From Natrialba swarupiae (lineage in GTDB: Archaea > Halobacteriota > Halobacteria > Halobacteriales > Natrialbaceae), in NCBI RefSeq assembly GCF_008245225.1, contig NZ_VTAW01000032.1, positions 1 to 38,831 on the forward strand: a DNA stretch of 38,831 bases. Direction: 5' to 3'. A model generated the notes under the pieces. It made no database searches. It saw nothing but the letters and a program-made list of their open reading frames with translations, and was not told where the DNA came from. The position numbers were made by a program, and so were the translations under genes. Shown here one piece after another: positions 11,113 through 20,728 of the stretch. Position 1 is the first letter of the stretch. Each line of letters starts with the position of its first letter.

Positions 11113-11182
11113 TACGGGTACGGATATGTGGGACCGTCACCCTGGCAGTCCCTCACGGAACTGACGATAAGAGACCGTATCA
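11113..11182. repeat. Dispersed palindromic element, copy G, fused to the topA stop codon
   Basis: Read on the minus strand, the topA TGA (11182-11180) continues into TACGGTCTCTTATCGTCAGT, matching copy B closely over about 20 bases. The far end is degenerate, with CCGTA at 11123-11119 and again at 11117-11113. It separates the SRP RNA gene from topA and lies in the topA 3' untranslated region. Confidence 0.6.
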
Positions 11183-14100
11183 GGCGTCAGCCTGCCAGGT
11201 CCGCACCCTGTCGGCGCTGATGCCGTCCACCGAATCGGCGACGTCGTTCGGATCGGCGTCGACCAGTTCGTCGATGCTCTCGATACCCGCGTCGGCGAGC
11301 TTTTCGGCGGTCTTCGCTCCGAGTCCATCCAGAACCTCGAGGTCTGTTCCGCTCTCGTTTTCGCGGGCCTGAAACTCCTTGTAGTTACAGATCGGACAGC
11401 CCAGTTCCCAGGGCTCGTCGCCGTTGTGAACGACGAGTTCGGGAAGGTCGTGTTCGTCGCAGTACTCGTCGGTGACCTCGATATCACCTCGGCGGGGAAG
11501 TGGCAGCGAGTACTCGCAGTCGGGATAGCGCGTACAGCCGACGAGCCGCGAGCCGCTCTGGAGGGTTTTGATCGCTAACTCGCCGCCGTGTTCGTCGGCG
11601 GTTTCACCGCCTTCGTCTCGCGACGTTCCCGACGTCGCGCTGTCCCCGCATTCCGGACAGTCGCCGAGGATCGGCCCTTCACCCGCCTCCTCGGCCTTAC
11701 AGAGCGGACAGCCGTGGACGAACGTCTGGCGACCTGCGAGCATCTTCACCTCGTTCAGGCCGTGTTCCTCACACTCGTCATCGAGGATGAGCGGTTTTCC
11801 CGTCGAGGGCAACGGAAGGGTGTACTCACAGTCCGGATAGCCGTCACAGCCGACGAAGTACGAGCCGTGACGACTTCGACGGACGAGCAAGTCCTCGCCA
11901 CACTCCGGACACGGCCCCAGTCGCTTGTCGTCTTTCAACGACTTGCGGAGGTGGTCGCCGATCTCCTCGCGCGAGTCCGCCAGACTCGCGAAAATCTCCT
12001 CGAGCATCTCCCGGGACTCGTCGGTGACGTCCTCGAGCCCGGCCTCGCCGGAGGCGATGGCGTCCATGTCCGCCTCGAGTTGGGCGGTCATCCCCTCGCT
12101 GACGACGCGGTCGGCGTAGTTCTCGGCCGCGTCGACGACGGCCATCGCGAGCTTGGTCGGACGCGGCGGGTCGCTCTCGATATACCCCCGGTCGTAGAGC
12201 TTCTCGATGGTGTTGTGTCGCGTGGAGTTGTGGACGACTGTACCGCTTTGTACGGCGAAGTTGGGTGCGCTCTCGTCGATCGTAAGATCGTACACATAGC
12301 CGTCGTACTCGCGTTCCTCGACATCGATGACCTCGACGCCGGACGGACGACCCAGCACGGCCGCGTAGATCGTGTCGTCGAACGCCGTAGCAGCATATCG
12401 GATCGTCCGGAGTCCACTGGTGGATCGATTACTGCCCTCCACACGCTTTTCGACGTACCCGGCGTCGCGTAGCGATCGGACGTACTCGTTCACGCGAGCT
12501 CGAGAGACGCCCAGTTGTGAGGCGAGTTCGTCCGACGTTTTGGGTTCCGCCGACGTCAGTTCGAGTATCCGCGCCTTGCGTCGAGTCACGTCGTACTCCT
12601 GGAGCGCGTCGAGGCCGCGATAGAACTTCTCGTCCGCAGCGATGGGAACGACGTCGAGGAACCGTTCGAGGTTCTCGCGGCCACGGACGTGGAGCTTGTG
12701 CTGACCAGGAGCCAATTTCGAGTCGATTCCGCGGCGGTCGAGCATCTCCGACACCGCCTCGAGCAGTTCGTGGTCGGTGTTCGAGATGAAGAGTTTGCCG
12801 TCGAGGCTAGCGTGGCCTTCGTCGTCGAACAGTGCGCCGACGAACGTCGGCCCGAGCGGTTCCGGCACGATCGGCCGTCCGTCTTCGATCACCGTTTCGA
12901 GGACGAACCGCAAGAGACGGCCCACGGCCGCCGGGAGATTCACCTGGTACTTCGTTTTGTGGTGGTCCTCCCGCCCGTCACGCTCCGTAATCGTCGGCTC
13001 GAACCCGAACAGCGTCTGGACGTCGCTTGCGAATCGATCGATGAGATGGCGGTCGGTGTTGTGATACCGGACGTCGACGACGTTCTCGTCCTCGTTGACG
13101 TGGATCGAGCCGTCGCCCAGCACGTGTGCAACGATGCGAGCGAGCGTCGGACTCCACCGTAACGGGAACGGGTTCTCGACGGTTTGATCGTAGTTCAGAC
13201 CGTGGAGTTCCTCGGGGCGGATCCCGAGTTCGCCGAGGATCCACACCGGGACGTCGCGTTTCCCGTTCTCGTAGTCGCTGATCGCCGGTCGATCCGCACC
13301 GATTCGCTCGGCGAGATCGTACTGCGTTTCGTTTCGCTCCCCCCGATAGTCGGCGAGTCGATCGCGACAGTCGATCCCGTACAGCTTCGAGGAGATCGTA
13401 CACGAGGTCGCGAACTCGGACCAGTCGGCGACGACGTCGTTTTCGTCGTATTCGACACAGTTGGCGGGTCGAGTCGACAGCAGCCGGTCACCCGGAGCGA
13501 CGTCGGCGGCGGGGACGATCTCGAATCCGTCGTCCGTACGGAGATACATCGGATGGTCGGACGTCACCGAAAGCGACCCGGTTTCGGTCGTAACCCGAAC
13601 CACGCACTCGTCGGACTCGAGCGGGCGCTGACTCACTAGCGTCTGCTCTCGCTCTGTGACACGCCCGGTCGTTTCGTCGACCGAGAGCGACGTTGGGCCG
13701 TGTTCGTTGATCGCGATTTCGGTATCTCCGTCGGCCATCACGACTGCGCCGTCGTCGAACAGGTCGGACACCGGCGTCCGGACGACGTCGTCGGTCCCGT
13801 CGCGGTGAAGTACGTTCGTTTCCGCCGTGAGGCATTTCGTTCCGATCCCCATGTCCTCCATGGTCTCGATGAGCCGAGACTGGCCGTACCGACGTGGCGG
13901 CTGGGTCTCTTTGTCCTCGAGTTCGACGGCATCGATCGACAGCTCTTCGCCCTCGTCGACGTCGGGGACGAAGTTCTCCGACGTACTGAAGTACGGGTAG
14001 ACGTCGTGGTAGCCGGCCTCGAGGAGGCGTTTCCCGTTGGCTTTCAGCCGGTGATCGCCGACTTCGGCGACGACCTTGAGGTGTTCCCAGACGGCGGCGT

Positions 14101-15325
14101 CGGCGACGGTCGCGTAGAACCGACGGACGACGAGTTCGAAGACCTCCCACTCGTCGTCGGAGACGTCGCCTCGGGCGGGGATCTCGCCGGTCGGGTGGAT
14201 CGGCGGGTGGTCAGTCGTCTCCTCGTCGCCTTCCGTCGGGGCGATCTCGTCGGCTTCGAGGAGGTCTTCGGCGGATTCGCCGAGCGTCGGGTGGCCGACG
14301 AAGTCGTCGAGCAGTTCCTCCGGATCGAGGTCGTCGGGGTAGACGGTGTTGTCGGTCCGCGGGTAGGTGAGGTAGCCGGCGGTGTAGAGGTCCTCGGCGA
14401 TCGACATCGCCCGCTGGGCGGAGTAGCCCAGCGAGCCCGCGGCGCGGATGAATTGCGTCGTGTTAAAGGGTGCCGGCGGCGCGTCGGTACGCGTCCGTCG
14501 ATTGACGTCGACGACGGTAACCGTCTCCCGCTCGGAAAGCGTCTCGTAGACCGATTCGGCGACGTCTTCGTCCCAGACGCGTTCGGCCTCGTTGTCGTCT
14601 TCGTCCCGGTAGAAGTACTGCGCGTCGAAGGCGTCGGCACCGTCGGTCTGCTTCTGGAGGTCTGCGAACAGTTCCCAGTACTCCTCGGGGTCGAACGCCT
14701 GGATCTCGCGCTCGCGGTCGACGATCAGCTTGAGCGTCGGCGACTGTACCCGGCCGACGGAGATGAAGTCGTTGCCGAGCTGGCCGGCCGACAGCGAGAG
14801 GAATCGGGTGAGCGCCGCACCCCAGATGAGGTCGATGATCTGGCGTGCCTCGCCCGCGGCAGCGAGGTCGAAGTCGAGGTCTTCGGGCTGGTCGAAGGCG
14901 TTCTGGACCTCGTTTTCGGTGATCGACGAGAAGCGAACGCGGCGGATTGGAACGTCCTCGTTGACGTCGCGAACGATCTCGTATGCCTCCTTGCCGATGA
15001 GTTCGCCCTCGCGGTCGTAGTCGGTCGCGATCGTCACGCGGGTCGCCTTGCGCGCGAGGATACGAAGCGTCGCGACGATGTTCTCTTTCGTGGCGGTCTT
15101 TTCGATCTCCGCGTCGATCAACTCGACCGGTTCGACGTCGCGCCAATCGGAGTACTCCGACGGGAAGTCGACACCGACGACGTGTCCCGACAGCCCCACG
15201 CAGCGTTTCCCACCCCACTCGTAGACGTTGACCCCGTTCTCCCGACTCGAGTCGTAGCTCTCTCCGCTCAGAATGTCGGCGATTCGTCTCGCGGCGTTGT
15301 CCTTCTCGGTGATGATCAGTTCCAC
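11180..15325 (-). CDS. topA: DNA topoisomerase I (type IA) containing an intein
   Basis: The precursor has 1381 aa; removing the intein (residues 498-1033) leaves an 845-aa topoisomerase. The N-terminal Toprim domain starts with ELIITEKDNAARRIA and has ATDYDREGE. The catalytic tyrosine is Tyr321 in GYLTYPRTDN. After the intein the protein continues STRHNTIEKL, then several four-cysteine zinc ribbons (PCPECGE...GCDGYPDCEY, CPLC...CPEC...GCTRYPDCEY, GCPICNYKEF) and a C-terminal helix-hairpin-helix domain (DGLGAKTAEKLADAGI). It relaxes negative supercoils by single-strand passage. The intein interrupts the conserved GIGTK/STRHN motif, so splicing is needed for activity. The TGA stop abuts repeat copy G. 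An inverted repeat lies 31 bp before the start. Confidence 0.95.
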   Translation of the reverse strand: MELIITEKDNAARRIADILSGESYDSSRENGVNVYEWGGKRCVGLSGHVVGVDFPSEYSDWRDVEPVELIDAEIEKTATKENIVATLRILARKATRVTIATDYDREGELIGKEAYEIVRDVNEDVPIRRVRFSSITENEVQNAFDQPEDLDFDLAAAGEARQIIDLIWGAALTRFLSLSAGQLGNDFISVGRVQSPTLKLIVDREREIQAFDPEEYWELFADLQKQTDGADAFDAQYFYRDEDDNEAERVWDEDVAESVYETLSERETVTVVDVNRRTRTDAPPAPFNTTQFIRAAGSLGYSAQRAMSIAEDLYTAGYLTYPRTDNTVYPDDLDPEELLDDFVGHPTLGESAEDLLEADEIAPTEGDEETTDHPPIHPTGEIPARGDVSDDEWEVFELVVRRFYATVADAAVWEHLKVVAEVGDHRLKANGKRLLEAGYHDVYPYFSTSENFVPDVDEGEELSIDAVELEDKETQPPRRYGQSRLIETMEDMGIGTKCLTAETNVLHRDGTDDVVRTPVSDLFDDGAVVMADGDTEIAINEHGPTSLSVDETTGRVTEREQTLVSQRPLESDECVVRVTTETGSLSVTSDHPMYLRTDDGFEIVPAADVAPGDRLLSTRPANCVEYDENDVVADWSEFATSCTISSKLYGIDCRDRLADYRGERNETQYDLAERIGADRPAISDYENGKRDVPVWILGELGIRPEELHGLNYDQTVENPFPLRWSPTLARIVAHVLGDGSIHVNEDENVVDVRYHNTDRHLIDRFASDVQTLFGFEPTITERDGREDHHKTKYQVNLPAAVGRLLRFVLETVIEDGRPIVPEPLGPTFVGALFDDEGHASLDGKLFISNTDHELLEAVSEMLDRRGIDSKLAPGQHKLHVRGRENLERFLDVVPIAADEKFYRGLDALQEYDVTRRKARILELTSAEPKTSDELASQLGVSRARVNEYVRSLRDAGYVEKRVEGSNRSTSGLRTIRYAATAFDDTIYAAVLGRPSGVEVIDVEEREYDGYVYDLTIDESAPNFAVQSGTVVHNSTRHNTIEKLYDRGYIESDPPRPTKLAMAVVDAAENYADRVVSEGMTAQLEADMDAIASGEAGLEDVTDESREMLEEIFASLADSREEIGDHLRKSLKDDKRLGPCPECGEDLLVRRSRHGSYFVGCDGYPDCEYTLPLPSTGKPLILDDECEEHGLNEVKMLAGRQTFVHGCPLCKAEEAGEGPILGDCPECGDSATSGTSRDEGGETADEHGGELAIKTLQSGSRLVGCTRYPDCEYSLPLPRRGDIEVTDEYCDEHDLPELVVHNGDEPWELGCPICNYKEFQARENESGTDLEVLDGLGAKTAEKLADAGIESIDELVDADPNDVADSVDGISADRVRTWQADA
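12227..13834 (-). mobile_element. Intein in topA with LAGLIDADG-type endonuclease and two helix-turn-helix segments
   Basis: The 536 codons start with Cys (CLTAETNVL) and end VVHN, followed by Ser as the +1 extein residue. Splicing block B is seen in TSDHPMYL and block F in YDLTIDESAPNF. The homing endonuclease part has two LAGLIDADG-like motifs, ARIVAHVLGDGSI and FVGALFDDEG. Two DNA-binding segments are added: an Xre-like helix-turn-helix (TQYDLAERIGADRPAISDYE) before the first motif, and a winged helix (TSDELASQLGVSRARVNEYV) after the second. The acidic residues in both LAGLIDADG motifs are present, so the nuclease may be active. Topoisomerase I inteins are known in haloarchaea. Confidence 0.93.
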
Positions 15326-15558: not shown

Positions 15559-16812
15559 CTACGATCGAAGCGTCTCGAGTGCCCGAGGCCAGTAGGTCCC
15601 ATCGGCCTCCGCGTATCCGGCGGACGTACCACCCAGTTGGAGGTTCTCTCGGTTCCCCGTCGGCACGTACGGATACCGGATTGCGTGGCCGGCATCGTCG
15701 AAGACCAAGTGATCGTACTCGTGGGAGAAGTCGCGTTCCTCGAGACGGTCTTCGGCGACGGAGGTGAGTTCAGTCGACTCCCACAGCAGGTCCTCGCCAC
15801 CGGAGACGAGCAACACGGGGCCGTCGTTCTCCTCGACGGCGATCGCCGCCTCTTCGCGTTCGTCGTCGCCGGTAAAGTGAGGAATGGGTTCGCCGTCCAG
15901 CGTCCAGGCGTGTTCGGTCGCGTGTCCGGGCGAGAGTCCGGTTACCACGACCCCGCTCCCGTTGAGACTGACGACGGGGCCGACCGAATCGAACCGACTC
16001 CCGGCCAACAACGCGAGTTCGCCACCCCTCGCCCGTCCGAACAGTCCCACCTGAGAGTCCTCGACCCGGTCGTGATCGAGCAACCACGCCGCGGCTTCGT
16101 TGACGAGTTCGAGGGGAACCTCGACGAGTTCGTCCGGGAGCCCCTCGGCCCCGTAGTAGTGGAGTGCGAGGGCGACGAACCCGTTCGATGCGAGCATTCG
16201 CGCGTAATCGGTCAGTGGTTCCGCCTCGGATGCGTGTAGGACCACGACGGCGGGTACTGGATCGGACCCTGGCGGTTCGAACGCCACTCCGGCGGGCCCA
16301 CCGTCGAGTTCCGTCACGGTGAGTTCCGGATCGCCGAAGGTTCGCGTCATCGTCGACGCGCCGAGGACGTCGTCGCCCGCGGATACCTCGAGCGAGAGCG
16401 TCTCTTCCGGCGGCGGTGTGTAGGTAGATCCCTCCCCGTCGACCGTCTCCATCGACTGGATCAACTGCATCGTTCCCGCGTCGTCGTCCGTCCCGTCCAC
16501 CGGGACGTCAGCCTCGAGATCGATCGTGCCGTCGGTGGCCTCGTACGTCGCAGTCGTCGACCACGTGACGTCGTTGTCGTCGTCCGCCGTCGCGGTCACC
16601 TCGACTTCCTCGCCCGACGGCAGTCCGCTGATCTCGAGCGAGAACCGTTCGTCGATCCGGACGGACTCGGGGTGGTCGAACGTCGGTTCGGTTTCAGCTA
16701 TCGACCGGACCTCGCCGAGACAACCACTCGTCGTACCGACGACACCTGCACCAACCACGCCGAGAAATCGACGACGATTTGCATCCGCCAGCTTTCCCCC
16801 AGATGTTTCCAT
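15559..16812 (-). CDS. Exported lipoprotein-like BAAT / acyl-CoA thioesterase homologue lacking the nucleophile
   Basis: The 417-aa protein starts with a Tat-type signal (RRRFLGVVGAGVV) and lipobox TSGC with Cys31, so it is probably exported folded and lipid-anchored. Residues about 45-165 resemble the acyl-CoA thioesterase/BAAT N-terminal beta domain; residues about 180-417 form an alpha/beta hydrolase (AVVVLHASE, LASNGFVALALHYYG). At the nucleophile elbow the sequence is GRARGGELAL: Ala261 stands where Ser or Cys is expected. The Asp region (GGEDLLWES) and His (AGHAIRYPY) are present. The protein is therefore likely non-catalytic or uses another mechanism. A TTTTAAATTTT promoter lies 28 bases before the ATG. 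Divergent from the MATE gene. Confidence 0.85.
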   Translation of the reverse strand: METSGGKLADANRRRFLGVVGAGVVGTTSGCLGEVRSIAETEPTFDHPESVRIDERFSLEISGLPSGEEVEVTATADDDNDVTWSTTATYEATDGTIDLEADVPVDGTDDDAGTMQLIQSMETVDGEGSTYTPPPEETLSLEVSAGDDVLGASTMTRTFGDPELTVTELDGGPAGVAFEPPGSDPVPAVVVLHASEAEPLTDYARMLASNGFVALALHYYGAEGLPDELVEVPLELVNEAAAWLLDHDRVEDSQVGLFGRARGGELALLAGSRFDSVGPVVSLNGSGVVVTGLSPGHATEHAWTLDGEPIPHFTGDDEREEAAIAVEENDGPVLLVSGGEDLLWESTELTSVAEDRLEERDFSHEYDHLVFDDAGHAIRYPYVPTGNRENLQLGGTSAGYAEADGTYWPRALETLRS

Positions 16813-16845: not shown

Positions 16846-17088
16846 TGTTATACCATATATAATATTACTCGTCCAGTGTGGGACCGATAGCCCGATTCGA
16901 GAGCGGATAGTGGCCGCCGTCCGCGGAGGATCGTCTCGAGCGTTCGCGGTCGGTCCGAAACCCCGACACCGGCCGCGGACGCGCCGAGGGACTGCCGACC
17001 GAACGCAGCGGGGCGATCGCGGCAATCCGGGACCGTGAGCCGAGTTCTTTTCAGGTGTCCGGGCGAGGGACGGATAGGAGCACGACTT

Positions 17089-18591
17089 GTGGGAGAGACG
17101 GATCCGGAAACCGAGCGCAAGCGCGTCGACATGACGACGGGGGCGATTCCTCCGAAACTGCTACACCTCGCGTGGCCGCTCGTTCTCGGGAACCTCCTGC
17201 AGACGTTTTACAACCTCGCCGATATGTTCTGGGTGGGCCAGATCGGTGACGGCGGCATCTCCGTCGCGGCCGTCTCGCTGATGTTCCCGCTCTCGTGGAT
17301 GTTCGTCTCGACGGCCATGGGGCTGACGGCGGCGACTATCGCGCTGGTTTCCCAGTACGTCGGCGCCGACGACGACCGGATGGCGGACAAGGTCGTCGCA
17401 CAGACGGTGTTGCTCGCGCTCGCCGTCTCGGGCGTACTCGCCGCCATCGGCCTCTACTTTCGTCGGCCGCTGCTGTGGCTGATCGGCGCTCGCGACGAGG
17501 TGTTCGTCGAGGCGCTCGCGTACATCGAGGTCATCTTCCTGGCGCTGCCGCTGACCTTTCTCTTCTTCGCGTTTCGCTCCTCGCTACAAGGTGCCGGGGA
17601 TACGAAGACGGCGATGTGGCTCGTGTTGATTTCGGCGGGCGTCAACGTCGTGATCGATCCCTTCTTCATTCTCGGCTGGGGGCCGTTCCCCGAGATGGGG
17701 ACCCGTGGTGCGGCGGTCGCGACGTTCATCTCGCGAGCGATCGCGGCGGTTGCGGGGATCTACATTCTGCTCGACGGGAGTTTCGGCGTTCGACTGCGGC
17801 CCGGCGATCTCACACCCGACGTCGGAATCTTGCGACAGTTGATCGACGTCGGCTATCCGGCGACGATCGACGGCTGGGCCCGAAGCTTCGCGTCGGTCGC
17901 GATGGCCGGCTTCGTCGCCCGGTTCGGTGCCGCTCCGACGGCGGCCTACGGGATCGGCGTTCGGTTGATGTCGGTGACGTGGGCAGTATCGGGCGCCGTC
18001 GGCAACGCGACCGCGACCGGCGTCGGCCAGAACCTCGGCGCGAAGACGCCCGACCGCGCCGCGGCCGTAGCGCGAACCGCGACGGCGGGAACGATGCTGG
18101 TCATCTTCGCCGTCGCGGCCGTGCTGATGGCGTTTCCGGCCCAGGCCATGCGGGTGTTCGTCGCGGACCCCGAGGTGATCGCCGAGGGCGTCGTCTTCCT
18201 GCGGATTATGGCCCCCTTCTGGGCGCTGTTCGCCGGCGTGATGGTGATCCAGGGCGCGTTCCGCGGGGCCGGGAACACCCGGGAGGCGATGGTGCTGTCG
18301 TTTCTCTCGCGGTGGATCTTTCGGGTGCCCGTCGCGCTCGTGCTCGCGTTCACCGCCGTGACGATCCCGATACTCGGCGTGACGATCCCGACCGTACCGG
18401 GGATCGACCTCGGGATCGAAGGGATCTGGTGGGCGTACTCTTTCGGCATGGTCGCCTCCTTCGCCGTCGCGGTCGTCTGGTTCCGGCTGGGTACCTGGCG
18501 GGAAGGGATCGTCGACGACGGAGCGGACGCCGGGGCGACCGAACATGGCGAACGCGAAGCCGAGACTGACGCTGAGTTCGTCGACGACTGA
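17089..18591 (+). CDS. MATE-family multidrug/toxin efflux transporter
   Basis: The protein of about 500 aa has twelve predicted membrane helices in two homologous halves. The first half starts MTTGAIPPKLLHLAWPLVLGNLLQTFYNLADMFWVG, the typical MATE opening with the D in the LADMFWVG motif; the second starts LIDVGYPATIDGWARS. MATE proteins export organic cations or other solutes using Na+ or H+. The GTG at 17089 places a short hydrophilic N-terminus before the DMTTG motif; an ATG at 17035 or 17131 is also possible. It is divergent from the BAAT-like gene and convergent with the flippase gene. The TGA stop at 18589-18591 abuts repeat copy C. The substrate is unknown. Confidence 0.88.
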   Translation: MGETDPETERKRVDMTTGAIPPKLLHLAWPLVLGNLLQTFYNLADMFWVGQIGDGGISVAAVSLMFPLSWMFVSTAMGLTAATIALVSQYVGADDDRMADKVVAQTVLLALAVSGVLAAIGLYFRRPLLWLIGARDEVFVEALAYIEVIFLALPLTFLFFAFRSSLQGAGDTKTAMWLVLISAGVNVVIDPFFILGWGPFPEMGTRGAAVATFISRAIAAVAGIYILLDGSFGVRLRPGDLTPDVGILRQLIDVGYPATIDGWARSFASVAMAGFVARFGAAPTAAYGIGVRLMSVTWAVSGAVGNATATGVGQNLGAKTPDRAAAVARTATAGTMLVIFAVAAVLMAFPAQAMRVFVADPEVIAEGVVFLRIMAPFWALFAGVMVIQGAFRGAGNTREAMVLSFLSRWIFRVPVALVLAFTAVTIPILGVTIPTVPGIDLGIEGIWWAYSFGMVASFAVAVVWFRLGTWREGIVDDGADAGATEHGEREAETDAEFVDD

Positions 18592-20338: not shown

Positions 20339-20728
20339 TCAGACCCCCGTCGCCGGCTCGAGTTCGTAGCTCTCGACGGTGGCCGCCTCCTCGCCGAAGC
20401 GGGGAAACTCGATTTCGAACGGCCACTCCTCGCCCGAGGTGACGTCCTCGTCGACGTTCTCGATGACGCTCTCGAGTTGTTCACCCTCCTCGTCGAAGAA
20501 CGTCGCCCGGATCTCGAGGTAGTTCAGCGTTCGATCGCCGACGTTTCGAACGACTCCCCAGACGTAGACGCGTTCGTCCTCGGTTCCGGGGTTGTCCCGG
20601 ACGAGATCGGACCAGGCGATTTCGACGTCGGCCGGTTCGGTGATCTCCTCCCCGTTGTCCTCGAGGAACTCGAGACAGCCCGAAACCGCGACCGCGAGCG
20701 ACAGCGAGAGGAACCCGCGACGGTACAT
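20339..20728 (-). CDS. FxLYD-domain lipoprotein
   Basis: The 129-aa protein starts MYRRGFLSLSLAVAVSGC, a short twin-arginine signal with a lipobox (VSGC) and Cys18 as the lipidated residue. The rest is a single beta-rich domain with GVVRNVGDRTLNYLEIRATFFDEEGEQL, the FxLYD pattern (a small extracytoplasmic beta-sandwich). The role of these domains is unknown; several are attached to the cell surface. It lies upstream of the flippase on the same strand with a gap of about 120 bases containing nothing recognisable, and is divergent from surE. Confidence 0.85.
   Translation of the reverse strand: MYRRGFLSLSLAVAVSGCLEFLEDNGEEITEPADVEIAWSDLVRDNPGTEDERVYVWGVVRNVGDRTLNYLEIRATFFDEEGEQLESVIENVDEDVTSGEEWPFEIEFPRFGEEAATVESYELEPATGV

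Follow-up and report, generated by a model that had tools for sequence, protein, structure and literature searches.

A BAAT/ACOT-type protein of Natrialba swarupiae has, as its sequence strongly indicates, lost hydrolase activity with its fold intact. The nucleophile position holds an alanine, the oxyanion loop is altered and 27 residues are missing from a segment of the hydrolase domain. The reading frame is intact despite the loss of catalytic residues, with neither a stop codon nor a frameshift. We lean towards the view that the protein is maintained as a folded, non-catalytic binder at the cell surface. The gene lies in the window, i.e., the whole stretch of 38,831 nucleotides analysed here (GCF_008245225.1, contig NZ_VTAW01000032.1, positions 1-38,831 of the forward strand).

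Fold, active site and export signal

Translation of 15559-16812 on the minus strand gives a single uninterrupted frame with a GRARGGE elbow (Table 1), and the GC content by codon position (0.713/0.474/0.768) looks coding. By homology and fold the product is a full-length member of the ACOT/BAAT family. Both Pfam matches exceed their curated cut-offs (Bile_Hydr_Trans, 52.8 bits versus 27; BAAT_C, 92 bits versus 20.9), and a sequence search at E 0.001 gave human ACOT4 and ACOT2 as the sole solved structures. An AlphaFold model built with 33 sequences (pLDDT 87.8, pTM 0.86; residues 1-39 low) aligned with ACOT2 (3hlk) over 369 residues at a Z of 44.0 and an rmsd of 2.6 and with ACOT4 at a Z of 43.4, the next structure entry being far lower (Z 21.8). 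In this comparison of the model, the ACOT2/ACOT4 fold spans the whole protein.

Table 1. Coordinates in the window of the BAAT-type gene, its parts and its conserved flanks
Feature	Coordinates	Strand	Basis
BAAT/ACOT-type protein, 417 aa, predicted from sequence to be catalytically dead	15559..16812	-	One open frame; Pfam; model
Tat signal (RRRFL) and weak lipobox TSGC, Cys31	16720..16812	-	Motif; -3 residue Thr
N-terminal Bile_Hydr_Trans beta domain, residues 54-168	16309..16653	-	Pfam E 4.7e-14
HASEAE, residues 193-198, oxyanion loop with G194A and G197A	16219..16236	-	Alignment columns
BAAT_C part of alpha/beta-hydrolase domain, residues 232-410	15583..16119	-	Pfam E 7.3e-26
Ala261 (GCG), nucleophile position	16030..16032	-	Codon read; strand 255-260, A261, helix 262-273 in model
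Shortened segment between W303 and E327, 23 aa	15835..15903	-	Shortest of 117 rows, next 33
Asp341 of GGEDLLW, retained catalytic acid	15790..15792	-	Invariant column in alignment A1
His376 of AGHAI, retained catalytic His	15685..15687	-	Alignment
topA neighbour, intein-bearing, conserved flank	11180..15325	-	Pfam; synteny
MATE transporter, other conserved flank	17035..18591	+	Synteny

Active ACOT/BAAT enzymes carry a serine or cysteine nucleophile in a G-x-S/C-x-G elbow. Here, the serine of the human ACOT2 and ACOT4 elbows pairs with Ala261, so that the nucleophile of the active enzymes is missing. An earlier reading of this DNA from the sequence alone had named this alanine and its codon, GCG at 16032-16030, and translation and a codon read reproduce both exactly. 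The acid and the histidine, which the same reading had described as remaining, align with those of human ACOT2/ACOT4.

Two losses go beyond that reading. The glycines of the HGSxG motif at positions 194 and 197, which from the fold in general we take to form the oxyanion loop, are both replaced, and N. swarupiae reads HASEA. Among 121 rows (those longer than 250 aa whose residue at site 261 is S, G or A, including one artefact row, L038_p_854, described below), position 194 is Gly in 118 and Ala solely in N. swarupiae; at position 197, 108 rows have Gly and 12 have Ala, which means that G197A by itself is tolerated. The segment after W303 measures 50 aa in all four nearest orthologues versus 23 aa here, a 27-residue in-frame loss, and from its place in the fold the lost stretch would roof the active site. 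Overall, 58 columns are conserved in 23 or more of the 24 Ser-bearing rows of the surrounding 30-row clade, and the protein departs at seven of them (194, 197, 220, 261, 290, 323 and 329); three of the seven fall in five active-site columns that were selected post hoc (hypergeometric P 0.010).

A shift of the alignment that would move the nucleophile to another serine was ruled out, as the model places A261 at the turn from strand through elbow to helix and the candidate serines S195 and S286 are widespread. Since most homologues carry S195 and S286, these are not replacement nucleophiles. The search for an alternative nucleophile next to the elbow that the sequence-only reading had suggested was carried out against the four orthologues; it found no new Ser, Cys or Thr apart from S282, a residue commonly seen in other homologues.

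The Tat motif and Cys31 of the proposed export signal are present, and the lipobox proved weak: the -3 residue is Thr, where orthologues having a lipobox carry I or V, and lipid anchoring of the N. swarupiae protein is uncertain for this reason. It had been argued that a Tat signal and lipobox would place an acyl-CoA-type enzyme outside the cell, where acyl-CoA is absent, and that this pointed to a pseudoenzyme. This line of evidence was dropped. A regular expression for Tat-lipobox signals matched 13 of the 24 Ser-bearing rows of the same clade, three of the four nearest orthologues among them; over all full-length rows, 41 of 97 matched. Because so many Ser-bearing homologues share the signal, export is no mark of a pseudoenzyme. 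Judged from these sequences, BAAT-type proteins that combine a surface location with a full triad are common, and their substrate is presumably not acyl-CoA.

The nucleophile position across homologues

In a genome search, 56 of 125 genomes of the family matched at E 1e-3, some matches covering the signal region alone, and at least 93 of 392 genomes of the order matched at 1e-15. The stronger places were fetched from the matches listed, which are fewer than all matches, and gave 128 open-frame rows, or 126 without two duplicates. At position 261 these 126 rows have Ser in 113, Gly in 8, Ala in 1 (N. swarupiae) and no letter in 4. One of the Gly rows, L038_p_854, is a wrong-frame artefact: it comes from one part of a broken gene, and the other part has Ser. 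This leaves seven real Gly rows. In the genome of the artefact row (G008) the BAAT homologue is split over two frames, through either a broken gene or a sequencing error. Conservation of the alanine among haloarchaeal homologues, which the sequence-only reading had put forward as a check, was not found: the residue is unique to N. swarupiae in the order sample.

In a tree of 97 rows (SH-aLRT support only), N. swarupiae is sister, with support 83, to the four nearest orthologues, L003-L006, whose own node has support 98 and which all have Ser at 261. Because these four sit at the same topA locus and keep Ser, its loss in N. swarupiae is derived. From the shared node, the N. swarupiae branch measures 0.40 versus 0.30-0.35 for its sisters. 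At the orthologue loci of G051, G068 and G069 the BAAT gene lies between topA and MATE; in G012 it adjoins topA, with MATE some 4 kb beyond. A BAAT_C gene is absent from all three other genomes of the N. swarupiae genus. In G038, topA and MATE are adjacent, with no BAAT remnant by tblastn; the slot is held in G040 by a different gene that looks by eye like a histidine kinase; and G039 has topA and MATE on separate contigs.

Other features of the locus were recorded along the way. The topA frame, 1383 aa long, contains an intein (Intein_splicing match 524-1033), in which a LAGLIDADG domain and two helix-turn-helix matches (HTH_3, 657-691; MarR/TrmB, 911-966) were found; the topA frames of seven related genomes measure 828-885 aa and look intein-free. 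At 20339-20728 on the minus strand lies a 129-aa protein whose N-terminus resembles by eye that of a lipoprotein; Pfam gave no match to it at 1e-5.

Outside the order sample, genome contigs scanned with the single N. swarupiae protein as query gave no match. A scan with a profile (alignment) gave 327 loci, of which 80 were kept via the motif [KR]G[GA]EL..., which begins after the nucleophile; elbows unlike the motif are left out of this sample. Its nucleophile residue is Ser in 75 loci, Gly in 4 (Natronococcus again) and Ala in 1, an actinobacterial MAG. The latter protein (L186:2857-4152, 431 aa) reads GTARGGE and, by eye, has a Tat signal and lipobox and keeps the acid and His. Among the best 15 of 26 plasmid records, no near relative exceeded 37% identity.

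The seven real Gly rows form two lineages, five from Natronococcus (genus g19) and two from g2 genomes. The Natronococcus proteins (L013, L019, L031, L036 and L037, which include those of sp. A-GB7, amylolyticus, jeotgali and sp. A-GB1) lie on a single branch of the 97-row tree with support 100, and their origin is separate from that of N. swarupiae. His376 is Arg in 4 of the 5, position 220 is V in all, and the lipobox Cys is gone in 4 of the 5. The Gly-type gene is the only BAAT_C gene in four of the five genomes, the fifth (G092) also having a Ser copy; among the nine genomes of g19, three more lack BAAT_C and G089 has two others. A codon fit of the clade gave an omega of 0.182 (lnL -4156.8 versus -4327.2 at omega 1, kappa held), comparable to those of five Ser clades (0.160, 0.211, 0.187, 0.231 and 0.083); a three-row set into which the g2 pair was mixed (omega 0.080, tree length 8.4) was disregarded. 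The codons vary silently, Gly261 being GGT, GGC, GGC, GGG and GGG and Arg376 being CGG, CGC, CGA and CGA. At the codon level, these data show purifying selection on the Natronococcus Gly lineage after nucleophile loss. The nucleophile loss is fixed in this separate lineage, which shows that in this family of archaea a BAAT protein without catalysis can be worth keeping.

At the Natronococcus locus L134, the Gly-type gene is near genes for polysaccharide deacetylase-like, Wzy/O-antigen-ligase-like and PQQ beta-propeller proteins, and the gene order at L135, of the same genus, looks alike by eye. The g2 pair (L050 and L051), probably belonging to Haloarchaeobius, has Gly at 261, no HG loop, a long branch (1.47) and no signal by pattern search; both are cytosolic-looking BAAT relatives.

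A maintained binder or a gene in decay

The course of events that we favour would start from a topA-linked, Tat-exported BAAT-type serine hydrolase. On the lineage to N. swarupiae, catalysis would have been lost as the nucleophile became Ala, the oxyanion glycines were replaced and the segment was shortened by 27 residues; the fold and the remaining residues would have been kept, and the protein would persist at the surface in non-catalytic form. An alpha/beta-hydrolase fold without a nucleophile forms no covalent acyl-enzyme, so the remaining capacity would be binding, as in other alpha/beta-hydrolase pseudoenzymes, and the opened pocket may take an acylated or aromatic ligand or a partner protein. 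Analogy, together with the maintained Natronococcus Gly lineage, makes a binding role plausible. Of the surface pseudoenzyme, perhaps a binding protein, that the sequence-only reading had proposed, the loss of activity is thus well supported by the nucleophile, the oxyanion loop and the segment, and the binding part is the more conjectural one, with gene decay as a substantial competitor.

Decay would mean that the hydrolase was no longer needed and that the copy is drifting, having lost its catalytic residues first. We regard this as a credible though less probable account. The protein combines the loss of several catalytic features with a deletion and a weakened lipobox, its Ala is a singleton in the order sample, its branch is a little longer than those of its sisters, and the congeners lack the gene, the slot being empty in one and taken over in another. 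The open frame, which might be offered as proof of selection, is weak evidence, because neutral simulations remained free of nonsense codons in 29-41% of runs at 4 conserved hits and in 9-20% at 7. Against decay, there is no stop or frameshift, and the acid, His and fold are intact. Omega is not raised, at 0.180 for the five-row set with N. swarupiae versus 0.187 without it, a single omega that is blind to late relaxation on one branch. In addition, the 7 departures at 58 conserved columns fall within the leave-one-out range of 0-10 among Ser rows.

Residual or altered catalysis, whether by water that His376 and Asp341 activate or by a different nucleophilic residue, would fit the retention of both residues, unlike the Natronococcus Gly proteins with their frequent loss of His. 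We consider it improbable, as the oxyanion loop has lost G194 as well, the residues beside the elbow include no new nucleophile, and S195 and S286 are common in homologues. That Ser in the homologues might signify a sequencing error had been foreseen in the sequence-only reading. The near orthologues do all have Ser, and TCG to GCG is a single base; yet an error of sequencing or assembly at codon 261 is very unlikely because G194A, G197A and the in-frame loss of 27 residues accompany Ala261, next to further independent changes at 220 and 290.

Maintenance of the N. swarupiae protein as a binder may be part of a wider pattern. Tentatively, exported BAAT-type hydrolases of haloarchaea may have been converted several times into binders that are conserved at the surface without catalysis, a receptor class without an enzymatic role, in Natronococcus and, independently and with an opened pocket, in N. 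swarupiae.

Relation to known systems

Non-catalytic proteins with a hydrolase fold are a known kind of event. The NDRG family, the neuroligins and the thyroglobulin domain have this fold with catalytic residues replaced and serve non-enzymatic roles, as described in passages of PMC7022630 and PMC5943944. The examples in the literature consulted come from animals; these three differ from the N. swarupiae protein in being eukaryotic, in belonging to other subfamilies and in having known partners. In the open-licence PMC literature searched, no report of inactive BAAT proteins in prokaryotes was found, and the family is one for which the search found no such report.

With human ACOT2/ACOT4 and BAAT, the N. 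swarupiae protein shares the two-domain architecture, the fold, the acid and the His; it differs from them in lacking the Ser/Cys nucleophile, in its altered oxyanion loop and shortened segment, and in its Tat signal. For nucleophile-less genes, the annotation "acyl-CoA thioesterase/BAAT" is likely wrong as to activity.

The closest comparison is with the Natrinema/Halopiger relatives L003-L006, which share the orthologous topA locus and 54-55% identity, three of the four also having a Tat-lipobox; they differ in having all three triad residues, the HGSxG loop and a segment of the full 50 aa. The Natronococcus Gly proteins share with N. swarupiae the loss of the nucleophile, the Tat motif and the change of F220, and differ in their separate origin, in having Gly rather than Ala, in the replacement of His by Arg and the loss of the lipobox Cys (4 of 5 each), in keeping HGxxG and in being maintained. 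Within one haloarchaeal family, a single locus holds active proteins in some genomes and a dead one in N. swarupiae, and at least two further dead lineages occur in the order; this repeated loss of catalytic parts in relatives hints at reuse of the fold beyond its chemistry. With active and dead members paired, and with the Natronococcus dead lineage usually supplying the sole BAAT_C gene of its genome, a direct test of whether the fold is kept for binding is possible.
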